Assembly: GCF_024363565.1 (NCBI RefSeq)
Contig: NZ_JAJEKE010000021.1
Location: 1-64,000 of the forward strand
Origin: Lutispora saccharofermentans
Lineage (GTDB): Bacteria; Bacillota; Clostridia; Lutisporales; Lutisporaceae
Direction of reading: 5' to 3'
Length of the DNA stretch: 64,000 bases
The position numbers were made by a program, and so were the translations under genes. The notes beneath the pieces are model-generated. The model saw nothing but the letters and a program-made list of their open reading frames with translations, had not been told where the DNA came from and made no database searches. Shown here piece after piece: positions 47,272-63,079 of this stretch. Position 1 is the first letter of the stretch; each line of letters opens with the position of its first letter.

Positions 47272-47731
47272 AAAGAGCTTACACAGCTATGCGGCAGGCG
47301 AGACAGAAGGATTGGAGCATTTCCTTATAAAGGAGCATCTAGACAACTGTCCTTCCTGTAAAGCGGAATATGAAAGGATACTGGAGATAAAATCCATATT
47401 GTCGAATATGGGAAGAAATATTGCGGTTCCTTGCAGTCTCGTGGTAAATATTATGGAGGCTATTGACCTGGAAAAATATAAAGCTATAGGGATTCATGCT
47501 CTCAATAACCTGAGAAACTTTGGGATCAGCTTTATAGCAGCAGGGCTGATCATATCCCTATTCAGCGTAGCCCCTGGTATGGGATGCTCCAATAAAAGAT
47601 TCATCGGGAGGAGCATGGCAAAGGTCCAGGAAAGCATACTAAAGCCCTTTGAGGTGCTAAACAATAGCGTTATCAGCATTTCAGATAAGATATCAAATTT
47701 AAATGAAGCAATGAGTGCAAACAATGAGTAA
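47252..47731 (+). CDS. Zinc-finger anti-sigma factor
   Basis: The protein has about 159 residues from TTG 47252 (GGGGGTGGG upstream; GTG 47243 possible), overlapping the sigma gene. The N terminus has the ZAS/zf-HC2 pattern with His in EHLDNCPSC and the two cysteines C-x-x-C; the first Cys is in LLCSRVRK. A transmembrane helix lies near residues 90-107 (FGISFIAAGLIISLF). It should bind and silence the upstream ECF sigma factor at the membrane. The next gene starts 19 bases on. Confidence 0.82.
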   Translation: MLCSRVRKSLHSYAAGETEGLEHFLIKEHLDNCPSCKAEYERILEIKSILSNMGRNIAVPCSLVVNIMEAIDLEKYKAIGIHALNNLRNFGISFIAAGLIISLFSVAPGMGCSNKRFIGRSMAKVQESILKPFEVLNNSVISISDKISNLNEAMSANNE

Positions 47732-47749
47732 TTAATAGGGGGGACCAGA

Positions 47750-48217
47750 ATGATCCGGGATATTTTATTCTTTTGTTTTTCTTTGATACCGGGTGCTGCT
47801 CATATGTCTATGGGTTTTTTCAAGCGGGGAGTTCAATTGATGGTAACGACCATCGGGGCTTTTTCCCTTTTGATCAGTTTTAATACGGAGCAATTGGTTG
47901 CTGTGGTATGCTTGCCATTATGGTTTTTTAGTTTTTTCGACGGGTATAATATAAGAAAGCAGATAGCCGCAGGCAATACCGTAAAAGATGAAGAAGTATA
48001 CAGCTATGATATATTTTTTAATAACAAAAAATATTTGGGGCTTGGGCTTTTGCTGCTCGGACTTATAGGCCTCATCAATTCCCTTCCTAACAGCCTGATA
48101 ATATCCTTATTCGGCGTCAGCTCACAGAATATTTATTGGATGCTGAGAAGAAGCATCGTGCCATTATTTTTAATAATAATCGGTTCATACTTGCTTATGA
48201 AAAGCAGGAAAAAATAA
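47750..48217 (+). CDS. Small polytopic membrane protein
   Basis: The protein has 155 residues with about five hydrophobic segments: an N-terminal pair with SLIPGAAHMSMGFFKRG, a hydrophilic loop near residues 68-90, and a C-terminal pair. The first segments resemble the SLIPGxGHxYxG motif seen in TM2- or DUF6677-like membrane proteins. It follows the anti-sigma gene at 19 bases and is probably the third gene of that operon. No enzymatic residues are recognised. Confidence 0.7.
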   Translation: MIRDILFFCFSLIPGAAHMSMGFFKRGVQLMVTTIGAFSLLISFNTEQLVAVVCLPLWFFSFFDGYNIRKQIAAGNTVKDEEVYSYDIFFNNKKYLGLGLLLLGLIGLINSLPNSLIISLFGVSSQNIYWMLRRSIVPLFLIIIGSYLLMKSRKK

Positions 48218-48284: not shown

Positions 48285-48361
48285 GCGCTCGTAGCTCAGT
48301 TGGATAGAGTACTTGACTACGAATCAAGGGGTCGCATGTTCGAATCATGTCGGGCGCACCA
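48285..48361 (+). tRNA. tRNA-Arg (anticodon ACG)
   Basis: Acceptor gcgctcg/cgggcgc, D-arm gctcagttggatagagt, anticodon arm cttga-ctacgaa-tcaag (ACG at 34-36), T-arm gcatg-ttcgaat-catgt and encoded CCA. A34 would be deaminated to inosine by TadA. Confidence 0.96.
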
Positions 48362-48681: not shown

Positions 48682-50469
48682 ATGTTAAATAACAGTCGTA
48701 TGAAAAGGATCTGGATAATTCTTTTAGTAGTTGTTATGGTAGTTACTATGTTGACTGCGTGCTCACAGCAAGCTGCGCCCAATTCACCGGCTTCTTCGGG
48801 TGAGTCCGAAACGCCAGTTTTACCTACAAAAATGGAAGGTGACGAGTTTAATAATGGTGCTATTGGACTGCATGGCGGCGTATCCAGTTGCAGCGAATAT
48901 TCCTCTCAGATAGGCATCGATGTTCTAAAAGCAGGTGGCAATGCTGTAGATGCAGCAGTTGCGACAGCTTTTGCCATAGGGGTAGTTGAACCGAACCTTA
49001 GCGGTGTAGGCGGCTGCGGTATGATGAACATTTATCTTAAGGATACTAACGAGTACATAATCTTAGAATACATGGAAACTGTCCCCAAAGCTGTCACTCC
49101 CGGATGGTTTAATAAGGATGAAGATTCGTACACTGCCAAGAACGCAGCTGTTCCCAGCCAAGTAAACGGTTTGCTTACAGCTTTGGAAAAGTACGGGACA
49201 ATGAGTCGTCAGGAAGTTATGGCTCCTGCAATCAAACTAGCAAAAGAAGGCTTTAAGATGGATTCAAGGCTTGCCGGAGCTATAGCTGATAATTTCGATC
49301 TCTTTTCTGAACCAGGGAAAGAATATCTGCTTGAACTGTATACTAATGGGGGCATTCCTTATTCTGAAGGAGATTTGTTTAAGAATGAGGATCTTGCAAA
49401 TACTCTTCAGGCAATAGCTGATGGTGGTATAGATGAGTTCTACAAGGGCGATCTTGCTAAGAAGATAGTAGACGGACTCCGTGCAGGCGGCAGCCTTATC
49501 ACAATGGAAGATATGAAAGATTATGAGGCTGCAATTCGCGAACCTATCAAAACAACATATCATGGATATGAAGTAATCGCTCCTCCAGCTCCGTCCAACG
49601 GCGGTGACTGGCTGCTGGAAACTCTCAACATTCTTGAGAGCTACGATCTTAAAGCAATGGGATTCAATACACCGGAATATATCTTCACATTTAATGAAGC
49701 ATCTCGCTTGGGCCTCGCAGATTCCTATGCTTTTATAGGAGACCCTGCTTTCTATGATTTGCCTATCGACAAAATGGTATCAAAAGAATATGCAACCGAA
49801 CGTGTTAAGCAGATGCCTAAAGATAAGGTCCTTGAGAATCCACCTGCAGGAGACCTGCCTGTTAAACGCTTGGATCCTACTGGTGAAGAAAGCAAGCACA
49901 CGAGCCATATTGCCGTTATCGACGAAATGGGCAATATTGTTTCCACAACTAATACACTTGGATTAGGTTGGGGCTGCAAATTTGCCGTTCCCGGAACAGG
50001 CTTTTTCTATAACAGCCATATATCCAATCTGGAACACGATCCTGCCAAGTCGGATAGTCCTGACTATGTAATGCCTGGCAAACGCGTGCGAAGCACAATC
50101 ACACCTTCACTGGTGCTTAAGGATGGAGAGCCTATAATGGCTATCGGTTCCCCAGGTTCACTAGCTATTCCTCCGGCGGTCGCAATGGTTATAAACAATG
50201 TCTTGTTGTTTGATATGAATATACAGCAAGCTATAAACGCTCCCCGGGCTATGGCTATAGACCGTTTCGGCCCTACTATGACTATTGAACAAGGACGCTT
50301 TGATGAGGCTACTGTCAAGGCTTTGGAAGCATATGGCTATAAGATCAAGGCTGTTAAGGATTATGATTCTGCAGTTGGCGGTATTGCAGCTATCTATTTG
50401 GATAAAAAGGCCGGTATCTTCTATGCCGGCGGTGACCCAAGAAGAAACTATAAAGCTCTTGCTTATTAA
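48682..50469 (+). CDS. ggt: Gamma-glutamyltranspeptidase lipoprotein
   Basis: The protein has 595 residues with a lipoprotein signal (lipobox LTAC). It is a member of the GGT Ntn-hydrolase family (as CapD/PgsS and YwrD): GGNAVDAAVATAFAIGVVEP and GVGGCGMM form the N-terminal part, and autoprocessing should occur before Thr407 in K-H-T-S-H, followed by GNIVSTTNTLGLG and GSPGSLAIP. It cleaves or transfers gamma-glutamyl groups outside the cell. As first gene before pgsBCW it should trim, release or attach poly-gamma-glutamate, like CapD. ATG 48682 follows AAGGAGG. A 13-bp hairpin without T-run follows. Confidence 0.92.
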   Translation: MLNNSRMKRIWIILLVVVMVVTMLTACSQQAAPNSPASSGESETPVLPTKMEGDEFNNGAIGLHGGVSSCSEYSSQIGIDVLKAGGNAVDAAVATAFAIGVVEPNLSGVGGCGMMNIYLKDTNEYIILEYMETVPKAVTPGWFNKDEDSYTAKNAAVPSQVNGLLTALEKYGTMSRQEVMAPAIKLAKEGFKMDSRLAGAIADNFDLFSEPGKEYLLELYTNGGIPYSEGDLFKNEDLANTLQAIADGGIDEFYKGDLAKKIVDGLRAGGSLITMEDMKDYEAAIREPIKTTYHGYEVIAPPAPSNGGDWLLETLNILESYDLKAMGFNTPEYIFTFNEASRLGLADSYAFIGDPAFYDLPIDKMVSKEYATERVKQMPKDKVLENPPAGDLPVKRLDPTGEESKHTSHIAVIDEMGNIVSTTNTLGLGWGCKFAVPGTGFFYNSHISNLEHDPAKSDSPDYVMPGKRVRSTITPSLVLKDGEPIMAIGSPGSLAIPPAVAMVINNVLLFDMNIQQAINAPRAMAIDRFGPTMTIEQGRFDEATVKALEAYGYKIKAVKDYDSAVGGIAAIYLDKKAGIFYAGGDPRRNYKALAY

Positions 50470-50506
50470 AATAATAATTATTCTTAAACATTACGTAGGG
50501 TATATA

Positions 50507-50543
50507 CAATAATGCAGATTCTTTTATGAGTCTGCATTATTGT
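50507..50543 (+). other. Hairpin between ggt and the first transporter gene
   Basis: acaataatgcaga pairs perfectly with tctgcattattgt around an 11-base loop, without a T-run. Candidate attenuation or mRNA processing site. Confidence 0.6.
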
Positions 50544-50631
50544 ACACATGGCTGAAAGATAAAAATGAGAAAATCATAAAACAAATCTAAATACGAGAGG
50601 TAAATCCTCCCTGTAGCAAGGAGTGATATTT

Positions 50632-51918
50632 GTGACAGAAACCTTTTTAGTTTTGTTTATTGTGTTAGGTATAGTTGCTGCAGCAAGTTTCGTCTTTAAA
50701 AACGATGAAGCAAAACTAGCGCCGATAATTTTTGCTGCCGCTGCAGCCGGAGCGCTGGCAGCAGGCATGGGCCTGCGTATACGTGAACTTGTGGAAGGCC
50801 CATTTGCTTATCTTGATTCAGTATTGGCTGTGATGGCCGGAATGTTATTCGTTATGATACTTATGTATAACGGCACCTTTGAGCTTCTCTTTGAAAATAT
50901 AATCATAAAAAAGCGCAGTGCTTTTCTTCAAGCCTTGCTGCTGATCCTTTTAGTAGCGCTGCCTGGTATATTTACAGGTACAGCTGCAGCCTGCGTCTTT
51001 ACAACAGGAACAATGGTTGGCATATATCTCATCAAAAAAGGTGTGGAAAAATACAGAGCAGTACAGTTTGTGTCTGTCGGAGCTCTGTTTGGTTTACTTT
51101 TGCCGCCCATCTGTCTTCCTGCTATGATAACTGTAGTTTCGCGAAGCGGAAGTTTTCCCGCATCCTTTGAGGGTTATACGATACCTTTGCTGATTATTGT
51201 ACTGCCTGCATTGCTTGTATATTCGGGCATGTCGGCAAAATGGATAGGAGAGCTGGAGGCAGAGCCGGCTACATTAAATTCAATGCCGTCCCGATGCATT
51301 ATACCGATTGCAGTAGTAGCGGTATTGCTTTTCAACCACAACTTCCTGTTTAAATTAATGCCATTCCTTGGATATCCTCTTATATTTTTTATAGGTACAA
51401 TTCTGGCAGTCTTGCTGCCTGCTAAGAAAGCAAATGTTATTGAGAGTTCAGGAAAGGCAGTCGGCCTCATAGCTCCTGTGATAGCCGTTGCTTTTACAGT
51501 CGCTTCAGCGCTGGAGATATTGACCCTTACAGGTGTTACAGGAAAGCTGGCCACAATATGGTATACGGTCAATCCTGCTGTGTTTACTGCGGTGTCTATG
51601 GCAATAGTCGTACTATGCGGAGTATTTTTTGGGGGGCCTTTTGCTGCCATAGCAGCAGTGATTTCCTCCTATGTGATAGGTGCAATAGCTTATGAAGGCA
51701 ATGAGATGCTTTTAACTGCTCTTTCTGCCGCTCTTTGTACAGCAATTTTTATGCCTATTCGCGGCGGCCTTATTGCGAGTACGGCAGCTGCTATTGGTGC
51801 TGATAGTATAGATGTCAAGAAGATAATTTCAGGAGCTGCTTTTCCTGTAGCACTTATTCTTATAATAGGTGTAATTTATGCCTTAGCATATAAAAATCTT
51901 GTGTTCTTGATAGTGTAA
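50632..51918 (+). CDS. DctM-like multi-spanning transporter, cassette A
   Basis: The protein has about 428 residues from GTG 50632 (AAGGAGTG upstream), with 11-12 hydrophobic segments. The overall pattern, with LPGIFTGTAAACVFTTG and LFGLLLPPICLPAMI as re-entrant-type loops, resembles the ion-transporter superfamily that includes TRAP large permeases. It is paralogous to the protein at 54128 (the same GxxTGxxxAxV and PPxxxPAM blocks). No periplasmic-binding TRAP component is encoded, though a ~50-residue membrane protein follows immediately. Inferred role: moving gamma-glutamyl oligomers, glutamate or a related anion. Confidence 0.75.
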   Translation: MTETFLVLFIVLGIVAAASFVFKNDEAKLAPIIFAAAAAGALAAGMGLRIRELVEGPFAYLDSVLAVMAGMLFVMILMYNGTFELLFENIIIKKRSAFLQALLLILLVALPGIFTGTAAACVFTTGTMVGIYLIKKGVEKYRAVQFVSVGALFGLLLPPICLPAMITVVSRSGSFPASFEGYTIPLLIIVLPALLVYSGMSAKWIGELEAEPATLNSMPSRCIIPIAVVAVLLFNHNFLFKLMPFLGYPLIFFIGTILAVLLPAKKANVIESSGKAVGLIAPVIAVAFTVASALEILTLTGVTGKLATIWYTVNPAVFTAVSMAIVVLCGVFFGGPFAAIAAVISSYVIGAIAYEGNEMLLTALSAALCTAIFMPIRGGLIASTAAAIGADSIDVKKIISGAAFPVALILIIGVIYALAYKNLVFLIV

Positions 51919-51930
51919 GGAGGATTGTAT

Positions 51931-52083
51931 ATGGGGGCTTTATATTTCATTTATCAAGGCTTAGCAGCAATTATATGCTTGCTGACTTTATGGGAGTTAC
52001 TCAAGGAAAAATCTTTTTCCCGGGCGCTTAGTTTAGGACTGGTCAGCATTCCGCTGATTCTCAGAACCCTTATGATTAAGTGA
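51931..52083 (+). CDS. 50-aa membrane microprotein, cassette A
   Basis: The small gene has 50 codons, with ATG 51931 behind TAAGGAGGATTG, 12 bases after the transporter stop. The protein has two hydrophobic segments around an acidic/basic loop (WELLKEKSF) and ends in IPLILRTLMIK. It is related to the 47-residue product at 55412 (LYIYLG start, VPLVLRLLLIK end), which occupies the same position in cassette B. Conservation of place and sequence argues that it is real and a partner subunit of the transporter, analogous in position to a TRAP small subunit but far shorter. Confidence 0.75.
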   Translation: MGALYFIYQGLAAIICLLTLWELLKEKSFSRALSLGLVSIPLILRTLMIK

Positions 52084-52110
52084 TATACTGGAAGAATGTG
52101 AGGAATGACT

Positions 52111-53256
52111 ATGAAAAAACAGTTTATTATGAATATTGCCGTTCTCATAGCGGTTGCTGCCATATGCATATTGTCGGGAAATGATTTTCTGCGTATGCAC
52201 GAACCCGATTTGATCGCTGTGACTAACCAAAATCTTACTGAGGTTAAGATGCTCAGCGAATACAGCCCTGGACTGAAAGGAACAGCTGGAGATACGGAGG
52301 TTTATGTTATTAAAGGGAAGAAAGCCGGTGCCAGCATGCTCATACTTGGCGGTACTCATCCAAATGAGATTGCAGGGATGTTAAGCGCCGTTACCTATAT
52401 AGAAAATGCCAGGGCAGAATCAGGCACACTGTATATAATACCTCGGGCCAACAACAGCGGTTACACTCATACCGCACCGCTTTGGGGCATGATGGATATT
52501 GTAGATTTTAAGCTGCCCGACGGTTCTGTACGGGAATTTCGTATAGGAACGCGTCTTACCAATCCAGTGCATCAGTGGCCGGATCCCAATTACTATAATG
52601 GGAATTCAGGCCGCGAGCTTAAGCATGAGGAAGTTGCAGAAATCCGAAATCTTAATCGAAACCATCCTGGCAATGAAAAAGGTACGCTTACTGAAAAGGT
52701 CAACTATGGGATTGCAAACCTCATCCGCACGGAAAAGATAGATATAACTTATGATGGCCACGAAGCGGGGCCGGAGTTTTTACGAGTAAACTATCTAATA
52801 GCCCATGAGCGGGCAATGCCTGTTGGTTCTATGGCAGTCATGAATGCCAATATTGAGGGACTGCCGTTTGCGATAGACCTTTCAGGCAAAACATCCTATG
52901 GCCTTTCGCATCGTGCTCTGGGAGATAACACAGAAACCTTGGCGACACTTTTTGAAACTTTAAACCCTGCACAAGGCTGTAGACGTGGTAAAATGAGCAA
53001 GGAGCTTGTTCTCGGCGGAATAGACCAAAACTATGTAGATATAACCAACAGAGGGCTGCTGAGTTCTGGCGAACTTAGCGCTGAAGGCAGCAGCATCAAC
53101 CAGCGTACTGCTAATCATGCGGTTATGTGCAGAGAACTTATGATAGCATTTAGCGAATCCAATCCTGATAAACCGATAGAAGTTTCTGGTATGCCAAGTT
53201 ATGACGATTATATTAACAAAGGTCTGGAAAACATTTTGCTTTCTATTAATAAATAA
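52111..53256 (+). CDS. AstE/AspA-like zinc hydrolase, cassette A
   Basis: The protein has 381 residues with an N-terminal membrane anchor or signal (FIMNIAVLIAVAAICILSG). It belongs to the succinylglutamate desuccinylase / aspartoacylase branch of M14 metallopeptidases: zinc ligands H and E in GGTHPNE, the binding motif NLNRNHPG, a His ligand in YDGHEAGPE, and a catalytic-type Glu in LFETLNP. Similar to the protein at 55573. Acting outside the cytoplasm, it plausibly hydrolyses gamma-glutamyl amide bonds or a blocked end of the polymer. The start ATG 52111 follows GTGAGGAA. Confidence 0.8.
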   Translation: MKKQFIMNIAVLIAVAAICILSGNDFLRMHEPDLIAVTNQNLTEVKMLSEYSPGLKGTAGDTEVYVIKGKKAGASMLILGGTHPNEIAGMLSAVTYIENARAESGTLYIIPRANNSGYTHTAPLWGMMDIVDFKLPDGSVREFRIGTRLTNPVHQWPDPNYYNGNSGRELKHEEVAEIRNLNRNHPGNEKGTLTEKVNYGIANLIRTEKIDITYDGHEAGPEFLRVNYLIAHERAMPVGSMAVMNANIEGLPFAIDLSGKTSYGLSHRALGDNTETLATLFETLNPAQGCRRGKMSKELVLGGIDQNYVDITNRGLLSSGELSAEGSSINQRTANHAVMCRELMIAFSESNPDKPIEVSGMPSYDDYINKGLENILLSINK

Positions 53257-53279
53257 ATTTCTTTAGGAGGAAAACAACA

Positions 53280-53981
53280 ATGAAGAATTCAAAAATTTTT
53301 ACTGTCGTATTGCTATTACTTTTAGCAGTCTCCATGCTGGTCACAGCTTGCAGCGGCGGTCAAGCTCCTGCATCTTCTTCCGAGCCGGCTTCTTCTGCAC
53401 CCGCGGGCATTGAACCTTCAGGCACTGAACCTGCGGAAGCCGGGAAGGTTGAACGTCACACCAGTGACGATAACAAGGTAGTCACTTTAAACGGCGAGCT
53501 CAAGGCTATGGAGACTCCAGTGCTTCTTACGTCTGTAGGCCAGTCCGCCGATGTTTCTATGCTGGATGCTTTATTAAAGAAGATAGGTGCTGAATATACC
53601 TTCAATACGACTGCTAAGGCTGACGATATGGGTGGTGCAAAAACCATAATTATCGCTACAGGTGCAAGCTCAAAGGGATTAGGTGCCGCGGGCATATCTG
53701 CCGATGAAGAAAAGGCAAGGGGAAAAGAGCTGCTTCAGGCTTGCAAAGATAACGAAGTAACGGTTATTATGGCCCATCTTGGAGGTACTTCAAGGCGCGG
53801 TAAGCTCTCCGATGAGTTTTCAGATATGGTGCTGGAGTATGCTTCAGGTATCATAATGGTTGAAGACGGTAACGATGATGGTAAATTCAGCGATTTTGCC
53901 AAGGAGAAGAATATTCCTATTACATTGGTAAATAAAATTGCAGATTGCATAGATCCGCTTAAGACAATGTTTGGGAAATAA
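53280..53981 (+). CDS. DUF6305-type lipoprotein
   Basis: The protein has 233 residues: a lipoprotein signal (lipobox VTAC), a Ser/Ala/Glu/Pro-rich linker to residue about 55, then one globular domain. The domain has LLTSVGQSADVSMLDALLKK, TIIIATGASSKGLGAAGI, VIMAHLGGTSRRG and a conserved end ITLVNKIADCIDPLKTMF, which fits the DUF6305 family. The fold looks like a nucleotide- or ligand-binding alpha/beta sandwich. It lies between the two transporter cassettes and is probably an extracytoplasmic binding component of this system. ATG 53280 follows TTAGGAGG. Confidence 0.75.
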   Translation: MKNSKIFTVVLLLLLAVSMLVTACSGGQAPASSSEPASSAPAGIEPSGTEPAEAGKVERHTSDDNKVVTLNGELKAMETPVLLTSVGQSADVSMLDALLKKIGAEYTFNTTAKADDMGGAKTIIIATGASSKGLGAAGISADEEKARGKELLQACKDNEVTVIMAHLGGTSRRGKLSDEFSDMVLEYASGIIMVEDGNDDGKFSDFAKEKNIPITLVNKIADCIDPLKTMFGK

Positions 53982-54007
53982 CACGAGCTCCATTGGGTGA
54001 ATTTTAA

Positions 54008-54051
54008 GCCCGCATCCCTTACATTTTAATAACATGGGTAGGGATGCGGGC
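54008..54051 (+). other. GC-rich hairpin between the two cassettes
   Basis: gcccgcatccc pairs perfectly with gggatgcgggc around a 22-base loop. No T-run follows, so it may be a partial attenuator or processing site rather than a full terminator. Confidence 0.6.
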
Positions 54052-54127
54052 ATAGTAAAACTTGCTGTATCGGATCTTCTTCCAACTCTACCCATAATAC
54101 TGAATAAACTCAACGGAGGGATAAAAC

Positions 54128-55396
54128 TTGCAAATAGAACTATTAGTTTTTATTGTAATGCTGGGCGCATTTTTGCTTGGTAATTTTCTGCTAAAGTTGC
54201 CTGTGAGCATTTCTATGATCATGGGGGCAGTGCTTGGTGCTTTGGTTGCTGGAGAAGGTTTTCCGCTCCGTCATCTATTTGAGGGTACCTTTGTATACAT
54301 AGATACTATACTTATTATTTCTACAGCAATGATCTTTATGAAGGTTATAGAAAAATCCGGAGCTATGGAGGCTCTTAATGTCACTATTGTAAAACGGTTT
54401 CATAAGATACCGGCTGTAATGCTTATTATGCTTATGCTCATGATCATGTTTCCGGGCATGATCACCGGGTCCTCAACAGCTGCGGTACTTAGTGCAGGGT
54501 CTATTGTGGCACCGGTTTTGCTGCTTATGGGTATTCCTGCTCCGCAGACAGGAGCTATACTTGCTATAGGCTCCATTATGGGTATGGCGGCCCCGCCGGT
54601 AAATATTCCTGCAATGTTGATTGCAGGCGGTGTAGATATGCCTTATATCGGGTTTGAAGGGCCCCTGCTTTTCCTTACCATTCCAGGAGCAATCTTTACG
54701 GTGTTATTCATAGGTATGAGATACTGCAAAAACTTAAATTATGATGAGATAATCAAAAACCTTAACTTCAATATGAACGCCAAACATGGCTTTAAGTTAT
54801 ACCTTCCTATTCTGACAGTACTGACGCTTATGGTTTTAACGCGTGTGCTTCCAACCGCTATACCAAACCTCGGCATGCCGCTTATCTTTATGCTAGGTAG
54901 TATTGTGGGAATGTTTACAGGAGAAAAACTGGATTTCATAAGCACTGTAAAGGATGCAATGAACACGACGGTACCAGTGCTGGGCAAACTGATGGGGGTG
55001 GGCATGTTTATACAAATCATGACCCTTACGGGAGTCAGGGGATATATAGTAATAAGCTGCCTTGGTCTTAGCACAGTGCTTCTTTATGTAGCAATTGCTA
55101 CGGTTATGCCCGCCTTCGGAGCAGTTTCTTCCTATGGAGCCGCATCTGTGTTGGGGGTGCCTTTCTTGCTGGCACTTCTTTCTGGGAATCAAATAATCGT
55201 TGCAGCAGCGCTTTCATTCATATGCTCTTTAGGTGACTTGATGCCTCCTACTGCTTTGGCCGGTAACTATGCCGCCCAGATAGTAAACGAAAGATATTTC
55301 AAGGTATTGCGCTATTGCTTAATACCGTTTACAGCATGCATTATATTCGGTATAATTTGTCTGATTTACTCTAAAAACCTTAGTTTTTTAGTGTAA
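54128..55396 (+). CDS. DctM-like multi-spanning transporter, cassette B
   Basis: The protein has 422 residues from TTG 54128 behind CGGAGGG, with 11-12 hydrophobic segments. Shared blocks with the cassette A transporter include FPGMITGSSTAAVLSAG (there LPGIFTGTAAACVFTTG) and GMAAPPVNIPAMLIAGG (there LLLPPICLPAMI), as well as a C-terminal tail NLSFLV versus NLVFLIV. It is a paralogue from tandem duplication. It is followed 16 bases later by the 47-aa microprotein. The substrate is unknown but is expected to be tied to gamma-glutamyl compounds. Confidence 0.75.
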   Translation: MQIELLVFIVMLGAFLLGNFLLKLPVSISMIMGAVLGALVAGEGFPLRHLFEGTFVYIDTILIISTAMIFMKVIEKSGAMEALNVTIVKRFHKIPAVMLIMLMLMIMFPGMITGSSTAAVLSAGSIVAPVLLLMGIPAPQTGAILAIGSIMGMAAPPVNIPAMLIAGGVDMPYIGFEGPLLFLTIPGAIFTVLFIGMRYCKNLNYDEIIKNLNFNMNAKHGFKLYLPILTVLTLMVLTRVLPTAIPNLGMPLIFMLGSIVGMFTGEKLDFISTVKDAMNTTVPVLGKLMGVGMFIQIMTLTGVRGYIVISCLGLSTVLLYVAIATVMPAFGAVSSYGAASVLGVPFLLALLSGNQIIVAAALSFICSLGDLMPPTALAGNYAAQIVNERYFKVLRYCLIPFTACIIFGIICLIYSKNLSFLV

Positions 55397-55411
55397 CGGG
55401 AGGTGTTTTGC

Positions 55412-55555
55412 GTGTTATATATTTATCTTGGAATAATATTGTTCTTAATAATATTTATATTATGGAATATGTTTGAAGAAAAGGACATCCTTGCTCAAAT
55501 CGATGCGGCATTGGTGCTTGTCCCTCTGGTGCTTCGGCTGCTGCTTATCAAGTAA
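55412..55555 (+). CDS. 47-aa membrane microprotein, cassette B
   Basis: GTG 55412 to TAA 55555 behind CGGGAGGTG. The product has two hydrophobic segments joined by EEKDILAQID and ends VPLVLRLLLIK, paralleling the 50-aa protein at 51931 in length, topology, charge pattern and C-terminal motif. It lies between the transporter and the hydrolase, exactly as in cassette A. Too short for most gene callers. Confidence 0.75.
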   Translation: MLYIYLGIILFLIIFILWNMFEEKDILAQIDAALVLVPLVLRLLLIK

Positions 55556-55572
55556 TAAGGTGGTGATTAAAG

Positions 55573-56715
55573 ATGACGATAAAAAAAATAAAAGCCTCTA
55601 AGACTACCGCTGCTTTGTTGCAGTTTTGTGCAGTTTTGTGCATATTTCTGTTGTCACAGCAATTCCTTTCCATGAGAGAACCCGAAATGATCTACAAAGG
55701 TCCCGGTGTAACTGCGGTAAAGATGCTCAGCGAATACTATTCAGATATAGCAGGTACTGCCGCTGACACTGAGGTTTATGTGCTTAAGGGAGAAAAGCCG
55801 GGCCCATCTATGTTGGTACTTGGTGGGACTCATCCCAACGAGCCTTCGGGTTTTCTGGCAGCCATATTGCTTATTGAGAATGTAAAGCCCAAAGAGGGAA
55901 CTCTTTATGTTGTGCCACGCACCAATAACAGTGCGTTTACTTGCACCGATCCGCAGGAAGGTGAACCAATGCGTTTTACTATTGAGACCGATAACGGGCC
56001 ACGATGGTTCCGGTTTGGTTCACGTGCGACAAATCCAGTGCATCAGTGGCCCGATCCGGAGATCTACATACATGCTTCTTCAGGACAGAGACTTTCAGGG
56101 AGTGAAACCCGCAATATCAACCGGTCATATCCCGGCAGAACAGACGGAACCTTTACGGAAAAGATAAGTTTTGGAGTGAGCGAGATGATTCGAAAAGAGG
56201 GGATAAATATTACAGTGGACCTTCACGAAGCCTCACCGGAATATCCCACAATTAATGCAATCGTAGCTCACGAGGATGCAATGGAGCTTGCTTCACAGGC
56301 TCTTATAAATATGCAGATAGAAGGCATGGATATAAGTCTTGAGCCTTCGCCCAAGAATCTTCATGGGCTTACCCATCGTGAGCTGGGCGACTATACTGAT
56401 ACATTGGCTGTCCTTATGGAAACCTCAAATCCGTCTCAGGGTCGTTTGCGCGGACGGACAGATGAAAGCCTTGTTGTAAATGGAATCGATAAATTTTATG
56501 AAATGGCAGATGAATATGGGAGGCTCTATGTACCGTTTGATGAAAAGGGTCATCCTATTCAGGAGCGTGTGGCCCGCCATATTACCGGCATAGCGCAGCT
56601 TGCTTCAGCTTATAGTGAATTAGGCCTAGGCGGCAGTTTGGTGATCGACGGTATACCTACGTATATGGATATTGCAGAAGGTGGACTGGGTTCCTATTTG
56701 GCACACAAACAATAA
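55573..56715 (+). CDS. AstE/AspA-like zinc hydrolase, cassette B
   Basis: The protein has 380 residues with an N-terminal hydrophobic anchor (LLQFCAVLCIFLLS). Zinc motif GGTHPNEPSG, NINRSYPG, His ligand VDLHEASPE and Glu in LMETSNPSQG mirror the cassette A enzyme; the segment KMLSEYYSDIAGTAADTEVYVLKG is nearly shared (read in two blocks). It is probably an outward-facing amidohydrolase on gamma-glutamyl bonds. ATG 55573 follows GGTGGTGATT. Confidence 0.8.
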   Translation: MTIKKIKASKTTAALLQFCAVLCIFLLSQQFLSMREPEMIYKGPGVTAVKMLSEYYSDIAGTAADTEVYVLKGEKPGPSMLVLGGTHPNEPSGFLAAILLIENVKPKEGTLYVVPRTNNSAFTCTDPQEGEPMRFTIETDNGPRWFRFGSRATNPVHQWPDPEIYIHASSGQRLSGSETRNINRSYPGRTDGTFTEKISFGVSEMIRKEGINITVDLHEASPEYPTINAIVAHEDAMELASQALINMQIEGMDISLEPSPKNLHGLTHRELGDYTDTLAVLMETSNPSQGRLRGRTDESLVVNGIDKFYEMADEYGRLYVPFDEKGHPIQERVARHITGIAQLASAYSELGLGGSLVIDGIPTYMDIAEGGLGSYLAHKQ

Positions 56716-56741
56716 TAGGCTTATGAAGAAAGGATAATGCT

Positions 56742-57629
56742 ATGAAGCAAAATTATAAACAACTTGCGCTATGTCTTTTCATCTCGCTGTTTTTGGCTGG
56801 CTGCACACCGGCTGCTGATTTTGCACAAAAGCCACCTGACTCTGCAAAGGAAGCATCTTCTGGATCAAATTCGCAAATCCCCGGCTCAACTGTTGCTGAC
56901 GGCTCTATTACAGATGCTTGGGAGACTAAAGGGCTCTTCGCTCCAGAAAAAGCGGCAACCACTATAATTGAAACCTATAAAATCTGTGAGGGAACTGAGG
57001 CTGAAAATGAGATAACCGTGTTGACAGCTATGGAGGAAGGCCCTACAATTTTTATTGTAGCAGGACAGCATGCCGACGAGGTGGCTGGATACACAGCTAT
57101 TAATAAACTTAAGAGTATAGAGCTGAAAAAAGGTAAGGTATATATACTTTCTCCGGCAAATATGCCGGGCTTTAAAGCCGAGCCCAAAACGCGCTATGTC
57201 AACGCTGAGGAAGATCTTAACCGTTCATTCCCCGGCAATAAGGACGGCACAAAAGCCGAGCAGCTGGCAGCGGCCATATATGCTGAAATAGAAAAAATAA
57301 AGCCTGTCTTGATACTGGATCATCATGAGGCTAGGATGATCAAAGCTGATAGGGATTTTTTGGGGAGTTCACTTATATATACTACTTTGAACGGTATGGA
57401 GGATCTTTTCCTGAATATGCATCAAGCAACCCAGGACGGAGAGCTCTGCTCAGGCCCCTTCAATTTTTTCGGCCCGGGGCCTATTGGCAGCATGAATAAT
57501 GTTGTGGCCAACAACCTTAAGATTCCCGTAATAACGGTTGAAACCTATCGTGCATATATGTTGGAACGTCGCATAGAAGAACATATGGCAATTGCCGGCT
57601 ATGTACTTCGTTACTACGGAATGGTGTGA
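56742..57629 (+). CDS. AstE/AspA-like zinc hydrolase lipoprotein
   Basis: The protein has 295 residues with a lipoprotein signal (lipobox FLAGC) and a Ser/Gly-rich linker. The hydrolase domain has zinc motif GQHADEVAG, DLNRSFPG, His ligand ILDHHEARM and Glu in ITVETYRAY. It is a third, more distant member of the hydrolase group. Position directly before pgsB suggests a role in processing nascent or secreted polymer. It ends four bases before the likely pgsB start. Confidence 0.82.
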   Translation: MKQNYKQLALCLFISLFLAGCTPAADFAQKPPDSAKEASSGSNSQIPGSTVADGSITDAWETKGLFAPEKAATTIIETYKICEGTEAENEITVLTAMEEGPTIFIVAGQHADEVAGYTAINKLKSIELKKGKVYILSPANMPGFKAEPKTRYVNAEEDLNRSFPGNKDGTKAEQLAAAIYAEIEKIKPVLILDHHEARMIKADRDFLGSSLIYTTLNGMEDLFLNMHQATQDGELCSGPFNFFGPGPIGSMNNVVANNLKIPVITVETYRAYMLERRIEEHMAIAGYVLRYYGMV

Positions 57630-57633
57630 TATT

Positions 57634-58764
57634 TTGTTAGATATAATATTGTTCTTACTCTTTGGATCATATTTTGCTTACCTTGCTGCAGAAGCACTTT
57701 CAGCAGCAAGGTATCGTTGTATCATCCCACATGTCATATATATTAACGGCACACGCGGAAAGACTTCTGTAACACGGCTGATTGATGCCGGCTTGCGGCA
57801 AGGAGGATGGAGGACATATGCCAAAACTACCGGGACCTTGCCAATGGTCATCGATACCGTAGGACGGGAGAAGCTTATACATCGGAGGGGAAGGGCGAAT
57901 ATTAAGGAGCAGCTTCGTATAGTCAGGGCTGCAGCTCAAGAAAATGCTCAAATATTGATTATAGAATGTATGGCGATAGATCCGCAGCTTCAATATATAT
58001 CCCAGCATCGCATGGTAAAGGCGGATATAGGGGTTATAACCAATGTGCGCCCAGACCATCTTGATGTTATGGGACATACTTTGGATGAAATAGGGCAAAG
58101 CTTGTGCAATACAATACCTAAAGGCGGAATATGTTTCACTGCTGATGAGAAGTTTTTTCCTGCTTTTTCAGCAAGGTGCAAAAATGTGGGTACTGAACCC
58201 CGTCTTATATTGCCGGATGGTACTGAGCCGGAAATTGATTTCGCTGAAAATATAGCACTTGCTATTGCAGTATGCAGGCAGCTTGGCGTAGAGTCCCAGA
58301 CAGCGTTGGAAGGCATGAGACATTACTGCAGAGATCCCTATGCACTCAGCTTTTACAGGCTTAGAAGCGGAGCAGTTTTTATTGGAGGGCTTTCCATAAA
58401 CGATCCTGTCTCAATACAAATTGTTTATAATCAATTCGTAGAGCGCATGAATTTTGGACAGCGCAGGCTTATATTGCTTATCACCAACCGGTCAGACCGC
58501 GGTTATAGGACATTGCAGCATCAGGAGCTTGCAGTAGTGCTGAAGCCTGCTGCTATATGGATCATGGGGGGGAGCAGCTGTGCCATGGCGAGGGCTTTTT
58601 TCAAAAAAATGCCGGATTGTCCTGTGACAATATTGAAAAATGCTGTAGAAGTACCGCTTCGTACCCTTGATTCCAATGATATGATATTTGCCGTAGGCAA
58701 TATAGGTGAAGGAGGAAAGGCGATCATGGAACGTATAGAAAAGGAGGGCGTACCATATGTATAG
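57634..58764 (+). CDS. pgsB: Poly-gamma-glutamate synthase ligase subunit PgsB/CapB
   Basis: The protein has about 376 residues from TTG 57634; earlier in-frame starts overlap the preceding gene. An N-terminal membrane helix (LDIILFLLFGSYFAYLAA) is followed by the ATP-binding loop INGTRGKTSVTRLI of Mur-ligase-like amide ligases, ECMAIDPQLQ, ITNVRPDHLDVMG and FAVGNIGEGG near the end, all PgsB/CapB hallmarks. It activates glutamate as acyl phosphate and extends the gamma-linked chain at the membrane. It overlaps pgsC by eight bases. Confidence 0.95.
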   Translation: MLDIILFLLFGSYFAYLAAEALSAARYRCIIPHVIYINGTRGKTSVTRLIDAGLRQGGWRTYAKTTGTLPMVIDTVGREKLIHRRGRANIKEQLRIVRAAAQENAQILIIECMAIDPQLQYISQHRMVKADIGVITNVRPDHLDVMGHTLDEIGQSLCNTIPKGGICFTADEKFFPAFSARCKNVGTEPRLILPDGTEPEIDFAENIALAIAVCRQLGVESQTALEGMRHYCRDPYALSFYRLRSGAVFIGGLSINDPVSIQIVYNQFVERMNFGQRRLILLITNRSDRGYRTLQHQELAVVLKPAAIWIMGGSSCAMARAFFKKMPDCPVTILKNAVEVPLRTLDSNDMIFAVGNIGEGGKAIMERIEKEGVPYV

Positions 58765-59191
58765 CAAAATAATAGTGTTGGGAGTAGTGGTAAGCATCCT
58801 TTTCACCGAGTTTATCGGCCTTTCGCCTGCCGGGATTATTGTGCCGTCATACATAACCCTTTGCCTGCGAACTCCTCAAAGAGTTGTCTATACCTTGCTG
58901 GTAGCTTTGCTTGCATGGGGGATAAGTCGGTTATTGAGCAATTTTATCATACTTTATGGAAGACGCCGATTTGCTGTTATGATAATTCTTTCATTTTCCA
59001 TCGATCTGCTTATAGGAGGTATTATGACAGAGATTACGATGCCTGGCTTGATCGGTATATTGGTGCCGGGCATTATGGCATCGGAATTCGAAAGACAGGG
59101 TGTAATACGCTCATTGTTCTCTTTGGGAATAGTGGTAGGCATTATATCCATGATTATGCTGATTTGTGGTATCCCTGTATTAACGATATAA
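58757..59191 (+). CDS. pgsC: Poly-gamma-glutamate synthesis membrane protein PgsC/CapC
   Basis: The protein has 144 residues with four to five membrane helices. Typical PgsC motifs are LFTEFIGLSPAGIIVPSYI at the N terminus and EITMPGLIGILVPGIMASEFERQG in the second half. It forms the synthase complex with PgsB and may help to move the chain outward. It overlaps pgsB and precedes pgsW by about 20 bases. Confidence 0.95.
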   Translation: MYSKIIVLGVVVSILFTEFIGLSPAGIIVPSYITLCLRTPQRVVYTLLVALLAWGISRLLSNFIILYGRRRFAVMIILSFSIDLLIGGIMTEITMPGLIGILVPGIMASEFERQGVIRSLFSLGIVVGIISMIMLICGIPVLTI

Positions 59192-59211
59192 TATAATGGA
59201 GGTGATCTGGC

Positions 59212-60282
59212 ATGCGTAAGGCTTATACCTGCAGTGATGCTCTTCTGGGATTGATTTGCATGATGTTGCTTTGTGGGATAGGCATTATCAGCAATACTGC
59301 GGAAATAAGTCAAGATCCCCTTTATGAAACTAAAATGAAAGCCTATGAATATATGGATGAATGCATGGCAGCAGTGTGCAGTTTTAAAAAGGAATTGGAC
59401 ATTTCCATGACAAAAGAGGATATACATAAGACAGGAATGATAGGTCAGGCTTACTCACCCATAACCACCAGCCTAGGAAGCATTGAAGCTAAGCGGACAA
59501 GCGCTAATCCAGATATGGCAGCCCTTATGGTGGAGCTTTTAAACAAAGCGGGAGTTAGAGAAGGAGATATAATAGGAGCAAACTTTTCCGGCTCTTTTCC
59601 TTCCCTCAATCTTGCTGTGCTTTCAGCGTGCAAGGCTATGGATGTAAAATGCGTATATATTTCATCTGTAGGGTCCTCTAATTACGGTGCAAATGATCCG
59701 GAGCTCACTTTTCCGGATATGGCGTTGAAACTTGCAGCTAAGGGGTTAATTGATAGTCCTGGAGCGGCTTTTTCGATAGGAGGCTCCGGTGATACGGGAA
59801 AAGAAATGGAACAAGAAGTCATATCTCGTATAGCGGGACGTATTGAAAGCCAAGGCCTTCCACAAATTACTGCAAGGGGCTATCAAAACAACCTGATGAT
59901 ACGCCGGAAGCTTTTGGAGAGAAGCGGGAAACTCTCTTGCTTTGTGAATGTAGGAGGAAATGTCACTTCTCTAGGAAAAGGAGAGAATTCTATTTACTTT
60001 GGCCAGGGACTGATTGTAGATAAAATAATACCTGTGACAGAAGACAGTGGACTTATAGAAATCTATCGAAACCAAGGCGTACCGGTTATACATTTGCTCA
60101 ATCTGCGCAAGCTTACCGTTGACTACGGCATTGCTTATGACCCTGTTATATTGCCTTCGAAAGGTACTTCAGCCCTATATATTAAGCCGTCCTATAACTG
60201 TATTGCGGCTATAAGCATCTTTGCGGCAGCAGTGATGGGATTACTGCTGTATAGAAAAAAGCAAGGATGCAGGACTAAATAA
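59212..60282 (+). CDS. pgsW: Poly-gamma-glutamate system protein PgsW
   Basis: The protein has 356 residues: an N-terminal membrane helix (LLGLICMMLLCGIGII), a large domain, and a C-terminal helix (CIAAISIFAAAVMGLLLY). Central motifs IGANFSGSFPSLNLAVLSACKA, SSVGSSNYGANDPELTFPDM and FVNVGGNVTSLG fit the PgsW family that accompanies pgsBC in Fusobacteria, Spirochaetes and Clostridia lacking classical PgsA. The biochemical role is unknown. ATG 59212 follows AATGGAGGTG. Confidence 0.88.
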   Translation: MRKAYTCSDALLGLICMMLLCGIGIISNTAEISQDPLYETKMKAYEYMDECMAAVCSFKKELDISMTKEDIHKTGMIGQAYSPITTSLGSIEAKRTSANPDMAALMVELLNKAGVREGDIIGANFSGSFPSLNLAVLSACKAMDVKCVYISSVGSSNYGANDPELTFPDMALKLAAKGLIDSPGAAFSIGGSGDTGKEMEQEVISRIAGRIESQGLPQITARGYQNNLMIRRKLLERSGKLSCFVNVGGNVTSLGKGENSIYFGQGLIVDKIIPVTEDSGLIEIYRNQGVPVIHLLNLRKLTVDYGIAYDPVILPSKGTSALYIKPSYNCIAAISIFAAAVMGLLLYRKKQGCRTK

Positions 60283-60305
60283 TCAAGATGGAGGGGAGCG
60301 GTAGC

Positions 60306-61700
60306 TTGAGTCAATTTTTCGATAAGATTGTAATAGATAAAAGAGAAATGGCCATAGGTATATGCCTAGTGCTTTTAGGTATAGTAATGCCTTCTTTTCT
60401 TCATGTGGGGAATATGGGAATTTATACGGATTTGAAGCAGGCTCTTGGAATGGGAGAGAAGTTGTATGTCATACTAGCCGCATCTAAATTGGTGCTGCTC
60501 AACGGTATCAGGAGCTTTCCTCATTATTTAGGTGCCTTTTTTATAGGAGAAGCAGTATCATTATATCGTGGCGGGAAAGAAATCAGATTTATGAAAACTA
60601 TTATGGTGTGTGGCGTTATTCCCATTGTATATGTCATTATTGAAAGGATTTATCATATCCGCTATGATTTCGGCATACCTGCGATTCTTGTAATTACACT
60701 GCTGGTGATCTTGGAGAAGATTGATTTCAACATGGTGAATATAGGAAAGAAATCTCTTATGGTGGCAATGACAGTTATGGCCTTTCAATGGCTGGATGTG
60801 ATGCCATCCCTTTCCGGGCTAGCCTTTGGAAGAGGTGAAACTTCAAACGATATTAAAAATGCCGCATTATTGCTGGATGGAGAGTTTTTCCTCCAATCTA
60901 CCGCGCTGCTCTTTTTCTTTTTACTCTTTTTTAATGATATATTGTTATGCAAGCTGATATTGGATGAAAACAATCTCAGGCTTATGAGCGAGGAAAACCA
61001 CCGCAGCCAACAGGCATTGATGGAATCCAACATGCGTGCGATGGAAAACCGTACCTATATGGAGCTTCGGCATCTGGTACATGATCTCAAATCTCCTCTT
61101 ACCTCAATGCAGGGGCTGGTAGGAGTTATAAAGTTGAGCAGCAAGGATGAAAGACAGATGACCTATCTTACGAAGATAGAGGCTTCGGTAGAACGTATGA
61201 GCAGCATGATTTCTGAGATCCTATATGAAAGCCGAAAAAGTCCCATTACTACTTATGATATGATTACGGAGATACTTTCTCAGATATCCAGCAGCGAATA
61301 TGTCAATCTTGTGGAGTGCAGCAACAGTGCTCCCAAATTATGTATAAACGTGAATAAAATACGCTTTTCCAGAACTATAATCAACCTGCTGGAAAATGCA
61401 TATTATTCCATAGAACTGGATAAGGGCAAGATAGTGCTCAATGTACAGGAGGAAATAAAGAAGGATGCATTATATGCTTCTATAAAAGTTAAAGACAATG
61501 GTATGGGCATCTCTCCCGAGAAAATGAAAAATATATGGGACAGCGGCTATTCTACCAGAGGCTCATTAGGCTTGGGACTCGGCTTTGTGAGAAAGGTCAT
61601 TGAAGATAACAATGGATCTGTAGAGATAGAGAGCATCGAAGGCAGTGGTACCATGGTAACTATATGCATTCCTGCTGAATATCCGGATGCTGAAATATAA
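60306..61700 (+). CDS. Histidine kinase of the poly-glutamate locus
   Basis: The protein has 464 residues from TTG 60306 (GGAGGGGAGCGG upstream). The N-terminal ~220 residues hold about six hydrophobic segments, a membrane-embedded sensor without a large outer loop. Then come a coiled coil, the phospho-acceptor His in LRHLVHDLKSPLTSM, N-box NLLENAYYSIEL and G-boxes DNGMGISPEKM and GLGLGFVRKVIE. It pairs with the response regulator 36 bases downstream and sits in the pgs operon, so the system seems to sense an envelope or polymer state. Confidence 0.92.
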   Translation: MSQFFDKIVIDKREMAIGICLVLLGIVMPSFLHVGNMGIYTDLKQALGMGEKLYVILAASKLVLLNGIRSFPHYLGAFFIGEAVSLYRGGKEIRFMKTIMVCGVIPIVYVIIERIYHIRYDFGIPAILVITLLVILEKIDFNMVNIGKKSLMVAMTVMAFQWLDVMPSLSGLAFGRGETSNDIKNAALLLDGEFFLQSTALLFFFLLFFNDILLCKLILDENNLRLMSEENHRSQQALMESNMRAMENRTYMELRHLVHDLKSPLTSMQGLVGVIKLSSKDERQMTYLTKIEASVERMSSMISEILYESRKSPITTYDMITEILSQISSSEYVNLVECSNSAPKLCINVNKIRFSRTIINLLENAYYSIELDKGKIVLNVQEEIKKDALYASIKVKDNGMGISPEKMKNIWDSGYSTRGSLGLGLGFVRKVIEDNNGSVEIESIEGSGTMVTICIPAEYPDAEI

Positions 61701-61736
61701 AAAATTATGTCTGAATAATCACACAAGGAGGCTAAT

Positions 61737-62420
61737 ATGAAACAACCGATCACTATATTATCTATCGATGATGATAAGGATATACTCTATGCCCTTCAGG
61801 CTATTTTTGACTTCCAAGGCTGGCGTTCTGTGACGGCTTGTGATGTAGAAAGCGGATTAAAGGCATTCTGGCAATACAACCCTGATATTATACTGATTGA
61901 TTATCACTTGCCGCGTATAAACGGTATTGAAGGCGTAAGGATGCTTCGGCAGTTTTCGCCTCATGTGCCGATCATAGTATTCACCATAGATGAGAATCAG
62001 GAGGTTGCTGACCGTTTTCTGGAAGTCGGCGCCAGTGATTTCGCATTGAAGCCTATAAAGGCCCCTGACCTTATATCACGCATACATCTTCACATAAGAC
62101 TTATGAAACAGCAAGCCAACAATTTAAATCAAGCGGATATGACCCAAACTCAAGCAGATAACAAGACTGCGGAGGAGAGAGTGGTAAAAGGCATCAGCCC
62201 GGCAACCCTCGAGCTTATGAAACAATCTATGGCGGAAGCCAGCAAATTTTTGACTGCAGAAGATATTGCCGATGCTACCGGACTTGCTTATCAGACTACA
62301 TACCGCTATCTGCAGTATATGGAAGCGGAAAATTTAGTAGAGGTGCACGTTACTTACGGAAAGGTTGGAAGGCCTAAAAATTCCTATCGTCTTGCTTATA
62401 CAGGGGTGAGAAAGAAATGA
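61737..62420 (+). CDS. CitB/DcuR-like response regulator
   Basis: The protein has 227 residues. The receiver has the acidic pair in LSIDDDKD, the phospho-acceptor Asp in IILIDYHLP and the Lys in FALKPIKA. A Gln/Asn/Thr-rich linker leads to a C-terminal helix-turn-helix (FLTAEDIADATGLAYQTTYRYLQYMEAENLV, in parts) like that of CitB/DcuR/DpiA regulators, with GRPKNSYRL at the end. It probably activates the ggt-pgs transcription unit through the repeats or palindrome near 48.5 kb. It overlaps the next gene by four bases. Confidence 0.9.
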   Translation: MKQPITILSIDDDKDILYALQAIFDFQGWRSVTACDVESGLKAFWQYNPDIILIDYHLPRINGIEGVRMLRQFSPHVPIIVFTIDENQEVADRFLEVGASDFALKPIKAPDLISRIHLHIRLMKQQANNLNQADMTQTQADNKTAEERVVKGISPATLELMKQSMAEASKFLTAEDIADATGLAYQTTYRYLQYMEAENLVEVHVTYGKVGRPKNSYRLAYTGVRKK

Positions 62421-63079
62421 AAGAAAAGCTAGCGTTATTTCCCAATATTACAATAGAGAAAGCTTGTAAGCTTTGGGGCATTAAATTTATAGGGAAGCGG
62501 ACTCATGTATCTGAAGCCTGTGAGGAGCTTAGCACTCTGGCTGTACGGGAATATCAGGATGATGGCGAAGAAAAAGCTGTTATTCGCCAGTTGGAGGTGT
62601 TGCGCTGTCATCTTATGCTGGCAGCATATATTGCAGGGTATGATCCTTTTATGAGCTGTAGAATGATAATACTAAGCCATGAGGGGGATGAACCTGCAGA
62701 TGCTCATGGAAATACAGTGCCTTTGAGCACGCTGGCGGCTTATTTGCCTGAGGAACTTGAAGATAGTAGCCGGACAGTATGCTGGTTTGTACATTATATG
62801 GAACAGCCTCGGGAGGATGAACGCGGAAGAGTCTTCAGGCTTTATAATGCGCTTGGTACTTTGCCGGGAGGCTTTGACGGAATATCGTCACTCTCTTCAG
62901 GAAAGAAAGATGTAAATATTCTCACAATGCTTCTTAAACGCGTTGAAGATTTTCATGCGCAAGACAAGGAGGAGGAGAATTATATACATAAAACCAATCC
63001 TTTATCCGAAGAAGAAATAAAAGATGTGGAAGCTTGTTATCTTAAACTCTTATCGAAATTTTATCCTCAGCTTGGATAG
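62417..63079 (+). CDS. Unknown 220-aa protein coupled to the response regulator
   Basis: I do not recognise this protein. It has 220 residues, is soluble, rich in Glu/Asp/Leu, and has no signal peptide. Predicted helices predominate, with CRMIILSHEGDEPADAHG and VCWFVHYMEQPREDERGRVFRLYNALG as the most distinctive stretches. ATG 62417 overlaps the regulator stop codon by four bases (ATGA), so translation is coupled. It closes the pgs operon and may modulate the two-component system or act in glutamate polymer metabolism. Confidence 0.7.
   Translation: MKEKLALFPNITIEKACKLWGIKFIGKRTHVSEACEELSTLAVREYQDDGEEKAVIRQLEVLRCHLMLAAYIAGYDPFMSCRMIILSHEGDEPADAHGNTVPLSTLAAYLPEELEDSSRTVCWFVHYMEQPREDERGRVFRLYNALGTLPGGFDGISSLSSGKKDVNILTMLLKRVEDFHAQDKEEENYIHKTNPLSEEEIKDVEACYLKLLSKFYPQLG

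Follow-up and report, generated by a model that had tools for sequence, protein, structure and literature searches.

The window analysed here is a stretch of 64,000 nucleotides from Lutispora saccharofermentans (NZ_JAJEKE010000021.1, positions 1 to 64,000 of the forward strand), and its positions 48682-63079 hold a locus of 15 genes, all on the plus strand, in which PgsB, PgsC and PgsW of poly-gamma-glutamate synthesis stand together with permeases, exported hydrolases and a kinase-regulator pair. Intergenic spacing is at most 36 bp, with several overlaps, the exceptions being 153 bp 5' of permease A and 146 bp 5' of permease B; a homoserine dehydrogenase gene then follows. The genes are:

48682-50469, plus strand: exported gamma-glutamyltranspeptidase (GGT), probable lipoprotein (PF01019 3.6e-134; TIGR00066 above cut-off; lipobox-like LTAC)
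50623-51918, plus strand: permease A, very divergent DctM-like family member, GTG start (family profile match; long tree branch)
51931-52083, plus strand: microprotein a, 50 aa, two hydrophobic stretches and a C-terminal P-x-x-L-R...K (family of 65 in related loci)
52105-53256, plus strand: AstE-like zinc hydrolase 1, N-terminal membrane anchor (PF24827 24.3 bits; profile A4 columns H..E, NxNR, H, E)
53280-53981, plus strand: DUF6305 lipoprotein (PF19823 1.4e-51; lipobox-like VTAC; AlphaFold2 mean predicted local distance difference test score, pLDDT, 87)
54128-55396, plus strand: permease B, DctM-like, TTG start (PF06808 2e-10, 40.5 bits, cut-off 23.8; profile match to the DctMQ structure 9pym of a tripartite ATP-independent periplasmic (TRAP) transporter, E 9.6e-4)
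55412-55555, plus strand: microprotein b, 47 aa, GTG start (family in related loci)
55573-56715, plus strand: AstE-like zinc hydrolase 2, N-terminal membrane anchor (PF24827 30.5 bits, above cut-off; A4)
56742-57629, plus strand: AstE-like zinc hydrolase 3, short type, probable lipoprotein (PF24827 52 bits; lipobox-like LAGC)
57592-58764, plus strand: PgsB, Mur-ligase-like polyglutamate synthase with a TTG start, more likely at 57637 than at 57592 (TIGR04012)
58757-59191, plus strand: PgsC, membrane partner of PgsB (PF14102; TIGR04011 above cut-off)
59212-60282, plus strand: PgsW, alpha/beta domain between two membrane helices (TIGR04332; AlphaFold2 mean pLDDT 94.7)
60288-61700, plus strand: membrane histidine kinase (PF00512 HisKA, PF02518 HATPase_c)
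61737-62420, plus strand: response regulator with DpiA/CitB-like helix-turn-helix (PF00072 Response_reg, PF20714 HTH_64)
62417-63079, plus strand: orphan 220-aa protein, 4 bp overlap with the regulator gene, not conserved in the system (no family)

The initial annotation had named GGT, pgsB, pgsC, pgsW, DUF6305, two microproteins, a kinase, a CitB-like regulator and an unknown protein on one strand, and all are present. Its three AstE-like zinc hydrolases were also recovered: two pass the PF24827 cut-off of 25 bits and the third falls just short, and all carry membrane anchors or a lipobox-like motif. The two transporters that it called DctM-like fared unevenly, with permease B matching PF06808 and permease A, which has no Pfam DctM (PF06808) hit of its own, being a divergent member of the same family. 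The word "fused" in its title is right for the adjacency of the genes and wrong as a statement about protein fusion.

Relatives of PgsW were collected by an alignment scan of named genomes, from which the best 80 of 342 loci were kept, a set that leans toward close relatives; a single-sequence PgsW scan of genome contigs gave no match. Genes in the 80 loci were mapped by iterated profiles (for DUF6305, the domain alone with a length limit), and the neighbourhoods of PgsW genomes and a Cetobacterium plasmid locus were added. Four loci that duplicate others (L070, L112, L117, L132) were left out of the permease tree and of the GGT/C69, AstE-motif and microprotein counts; they are included in the block-order and full-flank counts, and the full-flank set and the tree may hold near-identical strains. 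Co-occurrence was counted in 398 genomes of the phylum and PgsB in 358 genomes.

The same gene block recurs around pgsW across the 80 loci and in several phyla. Its order is DUF6305, DctM-like permease, microprotein of about 50 residues and AstE-like hydrolase, beside PgsB-C-W and sometimes divergent from the pgs genes. This full order was found at 42 of the 55 permeases in the 80 loci. At 7 others the order is kept but an upstream DUF6305 was not found, in some cases at the start of a contig. When the count was confined to the 35 PgsW loci flanked on each side by 8 kb or more, PgsB and PgsC were each present in 33, the hydrolase in 31, the permease and DUF6305 in 30 each, the microprotein in 28, GGT in 17, and the kinase and the regulator in 13 each. 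The full block occurs in many Bacillota (Lachnospiraceae, Oscillospiraceae, Fusibacter, Clostridium) and in Aminicenantes (L125), Gemmatimonadota (L127) and Fusobacteriota (L004); partial blocks in metagenome-assembled genomes (MAGs) of Bacteroidales (L120) and Thermotoga (L130) may both be binning errors.

In the phylum sample the close hydrolase family does not occur mainly without pgs genes. The AstE-like family, called with profile A4 at E <= 1e-30, was found in 24 of the 398 phylum genomes, all of them among the 26 PgsW genomes, and was absent from all 372 PgsW-less ones; because A4 derives from PgsW loci, the comparison is partly circular and covers the close family only. The association has a Fisher p of 1.6e-36, a value that ignores kinship and overstates the association because the genomes are related. 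The two PgsW genomes with no A4 match are one whose PgsW is a fragment below the cut-off (G569) and one whose contig ends inside the locus (G653). For the transporters, the permease-microprotein-hydrolase block adjoins PgsB-C-W in most loci examined.

The synthase genes score above the curated cut-offs: PgsB scores 320 bits against 222.7 (TIGR04012), PgsC 106 against 96.45 (TIGR04011), and the adjoining PgsW 326 against 100 (TIGR04332). PgsB and PgsC accompany PgsW in 72 of the 76 loci with room upstream. The distribution of PgsW is patchy, with 26 of 398 genomes of the phylum (25 above the cut-off), 3 of 391 of the class and 3 of 22 of the family. PgsB above its cut-off was found in 33 of the 358 genomes, of which 23 have PgsW (225-396 bits) and 10 do not. 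Seven of these 10 score 492-576 bits and are probably of the PgsA type, and because the two groups separate in the same search, PgsB of the PgsW loci forms a branch of its own. The remaining three are G691, G707 and G702; the PgsB-like genes at G691:C1:1266291-1267427 and G707:C13:75509-76669, above the cut-off in genomes that lack both PgsW and the AstE-like family, possibly represent a third kind of setting.

The AlphaFold2 model of PgsW shows a compact alpha/beta domain framed by two membrane helices, and its alignment contains strongly conserved KR(T), SGSFP, GxSxxGAN and NxGG motifs. Foldseek found no solved structure at E <= 0.001 (best 1.4e-3, template modelling (TM) score 0.16), the sequence profile had no match in the PDB, and the best VIA-align hit had Z 7.7 (root-mean-square deviation (rmsd) 2.7, 114 aligned), from which we claim neither a fold family nor a new fold. 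In position and topology PgsW takes the place that PgsA has in Bacillus, and we infer that it substitutes for PgsA. The absence of a PgsA/CapA gene reported in the initial annotation holds for the locus, none of whose proteins has a Pfam match to PF09587 (PgsA-type). It does not hold genome-wide, and the statement that PgsA is missing from the whole genome was rejected: two PF09587 proteins lie on contig C12. Such proteins occur away from the locus in 19 of 25 PgsW genomes, this one among them.

The permease profile of these loci finds the TRAP structure 9pym. Permease A sits on a very long branch of the permease tree (5.62 changes per column; best identity 29%), and because of this divergence the second set in the window may serve another substrate. 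The window is best described as the conserved system plus a second, divergent permease-microprotein-hydrolase set; L090 has a similar extra set, a permease fragment and a hydrolase, 5' of the main block. Extra cassettes apart from pgs genes were also observed in several PgsW genomes (L187-L192, L206, L207), some arranged as AstE-DUF6305-AstE-GGT-permease-microprotein-kinase-regulator, and one genome (G505) has nine DUF6305 matches. Microproteins a and b start 12 and 15 bp after their permeases. Their family measures 47-69 aa as called and has the C-terminal P-x-x-L-R...[KR] in 65 of 65 members, which were picked by profile, so that the motif count holds partly by construction; it matches no Pfam or NCBIfam family. 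Its nearly constant place behind the permease suggests that the microprotein may be a small subunit of it, possibly a reduced stand-in for the TRAP subunit DctQ, for which the cassette has no annotated gene.

Two kinds of exported hydrolase alternate in one slot of these loci. A gene cluster in the related loci that at first carried no label corresponds to Peptidase_C69 (PF03577; one member checked), and most of the listed C69 proteins have a signal-like N-terminus leading to Ala-Cys-Thr. Among the 64 loci with both permease and DUF6305, 28 have GGT only, 28 have C69 only, none has both and 8 have neither; within 600 bp directly upstream of the DUF6305-permease pair GGT stands 21 times and C69 17 times. 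GGT and C69 are both N-terminal-nucleophile (Ntn) hydrolases. Two unrelated families in one slot suggest a single needed step, the cutting of an amide-linked chain, although the alternation partly tracks the permease tree and there are therefore fewer independent switches than loci.

Hydrolase 1 scores 1.1e-152 against the AstE-like family profile, of which it is itself a row. The zinc-site columns H87, E90, N183, R184, H218 and E283 of A4 are invariant in 23 of 23 hydrolases, both window copies included; among them, H87, E90, H218 and E283 correspond to the H..E pair, the third His and the catalytic Glu of AstE/AspA-type zinc deacylases. The profile matches structures of N-acyl-amino-acid deacylases (6twl and 3cdx, for example), and the alignment to 2qj8, 3cdx and 6twl spans H..E, NxNR and D.H. 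A pattern count of this motif passed 88 of 96 proteins; the other proteins were short or truncated, or the pattern missed them, and the assignment rests on the alignment rather than on this count. AstE acts on N-succinyl-glutamate, which resembles gamma-Glu-Glu, and by this analogy the AstE-like enzymes are plausible gamma-glutamyl hydrolases.

DUF6305 is joined to these hydrolases in single proteins: three genomes (L033, L034, L036) have a DUF6305-AstE fusion between PgsW and the kinase, and a MAG locus (L058) encodes a single lipoprotein in which Gly/Ala-rich linkers connect three DUF6305 domains, the one case of more than one domain among 117 proteins, duplicates included. Fusion to hydrolases and tandem repetition are the pattern of carbohydrate-binding modules, and this likeness points to DUF6305 as a candidate polyglutamate- or peptide-binding module. 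Its conserved residues K132, R147, H166, R172 and R173 would suit an acidic ligand. The DUF6305 model gave a best Foldseek hit of 1.7e-4 to a thiazole kinase (TM 0.37) and a best Z of 9.0 (rmsd 3.2, 144 aligned), a common alpha/beta arrangement from which no function is drawn; its sequence profile had weak, partial matches in the PDB. No DctP-type binding protein was found by Pfam among the locus proteins. In the phylum sample DUF6305 (PF19823) occurs in 46 of 398 genomes; PgsW is present in 23 of these (p 1.4e-21) and absent from the other 23, and the proposal that DUF6305 marks the polyglutamate system was rejected.

We interpret the locus as a coupled system in which gamma-linked polyglutamate is made outside the cell and salvaged, a reading to which we give a probability of roughly 0.58 with respect to polymer, products and direction, all three deduced from genes; that the genes form one functional system of some kind we hold with much higher confidence. 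PgsB, the ligase, and PgsC would polymerise glutamate and pass the chain outward, with PgsW in the place of PgsA. DUF6305 lipoproteins may bind and hold the chain at the outer face, where an exported Ntn hydrolase (GGT here, C69 elsewhere) and the tethered AstE-like enzymes would cut it to glutamate or short gamma-oligomers. The DctM-like permease and its microprotein would re-import the pieces, which the kinase-regulator pair probably senses. The initial annotation had proposed such a make-trim-reimport cycle, and it is supported by the co-occurrence and the block order; the GGT/C69 alternation and the DUF6305-hydrolase fusions fit the trimming of one polymer. From these observed features, namely genes, order, co-occurrence, GGT/C69 exclusivity and fusions, we infer the polymer, DUF6305 binding, cleavage products, import and sensing.

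Several observations weigh against this interpretation. Five of the 35 full-flank PgsW loci (L100, L104, L110, L118, L129) have no nearby permease, and DctM-like proteins could also act as exporters. Some PgsW genomes, for example G505, G564, G588, G469, G441 and G635, also carry cassettes that stand alone, without pgs genes, and the salvage part may therefore also serve other substrates. Ten of the 33 PgsB genomes lack PgsW, and three of them (G691, G707, G702) are unexplained. DUF6305 is present in 23 PgsW-less genomes, beside related kinase-regulator genes in 20 of the 21 surroundings examined, none of which has a permease near DUF6305; sensing therefore fits the domain as well as binding does. 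One of these neighbourhoods (L172), checked with Pfam, continues into an oligopeptide ATP-binding cassette (ABC) transporter, and for the others a peptide-transporter reading comes from gene lengths only. The second DUF6305 gene of the Lutispora genome (G000:C9:50969-51424, L186) likewise has a kinase, a regulator and an SBP_bac_5 protein beside it; L186 also contains a BPD_transp_2-type ABC set with a DUF3798 protein.

An account limited to synthesis and turnover of a capsule or surface layer, in which GGT or C69 and the AstE-like enzymes trim or anchor the coat and the permease moves something else (exporting glutamate, for instance, or importing a counter-solute), is unlikely. Membrane-tethered hydrolases fit such trimming, and GGT relatives such as CapD remodel the Bacillus anthracis capsule, but the permease-microprotein pair directly precedes the hydrolase in nearly every locus, as fits a unit that hydrolyses and then imports, and the stand-alone copies, which have GGT, permease and kinase and lack pgs genes, resemble uptake loci. 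Production of polyglutamate reported for Fusobacterium nucleatum (cited in PMC3815933) would also suit a coat. Those same stand-alone cassettes, together with DUF6305 beside kinase-regulator genes, and beside peptide-transporter genes where checked, in PgsW-less genomes, favour a cassette that mainly scavenges external gamma-glutamyl peptides or polyglutamate, with PgsB-C-W adding a short gamma-Glu chain to another carrier and the two parts linked by regulation or feeding. Francisella capB and capC are reported as dispensable for capsule in a review that calls the function of capBCA open (PMC4688374), which would agree with this. Pure scavengers should, however, occur without the synthase, and the hydrolase family is found in 0 of 372 PgsW-less genomes; we regard scavenging as the main role as distinctly unlikely.

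That the polymer is another N-acyl or gamma-linked one, with the AstE-like enzymes as its deacylases, is very improbable. The lower, separate PgsB scores (225-396 against 492-576 bits) and the activity of AstE-like enzymes on several N-acyl amino acids (6twl) would allow it, but PgsB and PgsC pass curated polyglutamate cut-offs and GGT, a gamma-glutamyl-bond enzyme, lies in the same operons. The salvage reading has a broader form that we put forward tentatively, at less than even odds: a multi-phylum class of extracellular glutamate store with a PgsA-less synthase, DUF6305 as polyglutamate-binding module, a TRAP-like importer with a mini-subunit of about 50 residues and a dedicated kinase.

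Polyglutamate is best known from Bacillus, which makes it with PgsA as a capsule or slime. The locus resembles Bacillus PgsBCA/CapBCA in its above-cut-off PgsB and PgsC and in the order B-C followed by a third membrane protein; it differs in having PgsW rather than PgsA, a lower and separate PgsB score group, and the coupled permease, microprotein, AstE-like hydrolases and DUF6305. A close counterpart is the Cetobacterium somerae (Fusobacteriaceae) locus on NZ_CP143320.1, where RefSeq annotation names pgsW, DUF6305 and the permease: it shares the kinase, regulator, GGT, DUF6305, TRAP-type large permease, a 47-aa protein, AstE-like protein and PgsB/C/W, but has one cassette against two in the window, one AstE-like protein beside pgs, and the kinase-regulator pair upstream. 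Compared with TRAP transporters (DctM/DctQ/DctP), permease B matches PF06808 and, by profile, the DctMQ structure, whereas the cassette has no annotated DctP or DctQ and instead a protein of about 50 residues after the permease and a DUF6305 lipoprotein before it. Phage PghP and Bacillus gamma-PGA hydrolases are, according to PMC4497714, zinc peptidases that cut gamma-polyglutamate; the enzymes here belong to the AstE/AspA-type family PF24827 and are set apart by family description. For Francisella capBCA the likeness is one of label: PMC5362203 gives CapA the same name as the PgsW model, "poly-gamma-glutamate system protein".

We found no paper on the coupled system, pgsW or DUF6305 in the open-licence literature, where absence in print cannot be shown, nor one there combining the subject with a TRAP transporter, a succinylglutamate desuccinylase, or storage and reuse; among the matches listed, gamma-PGA papers on Clostridia or uptake were on Bacillus or general reviews. 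The locus appears to represent an undescribed, conserved variant of polyglutamate synthesis coupled to salvage, wider than first noted. It is a common anaerobe version that links PgsA-less synthesis at the genetic level with hydrolysis at the surface and with uptake; if the polymer is re-used, it would be an extracellular store of nitrogen and carbon. The finding supplies testable roles for PgsW, DUF6305 and the membrane protein of about 50 residues, and bears on the product of PgsB-C-W in organisms with no polyglutamate capsule tied to the genes, perhaps including Francisella capBCA.

Promoter and terminator scans of the locus gave nothing usable. The orphan gene at 62417-63079 has no family match, and no relative was found in the other 5 genomes of the genus or in the related loci. 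A genome of the same genus (L006; G020:C271, 1-3202) has a homoserine dehydrogenase gene beside the regulator, the kinase and the end of PgsW, with the pgs genes inverted and no orphan gene; by eye, its PgsW end is closer to L005 than to PgsW of the window, and L006 may represent the exchange of one version of the locus for another at the same site. Just before the locus, positions 45388-48217 encode a LiaF-like protein with repeated motifs, a sigma factor of the extracytoplasmic function (ECF) type and a zinc-finger anti-sigma-like gene, and a tRNA-Arg (acg) at 48285-48361, immediately 5' of the locus, is a candidate insertion site.

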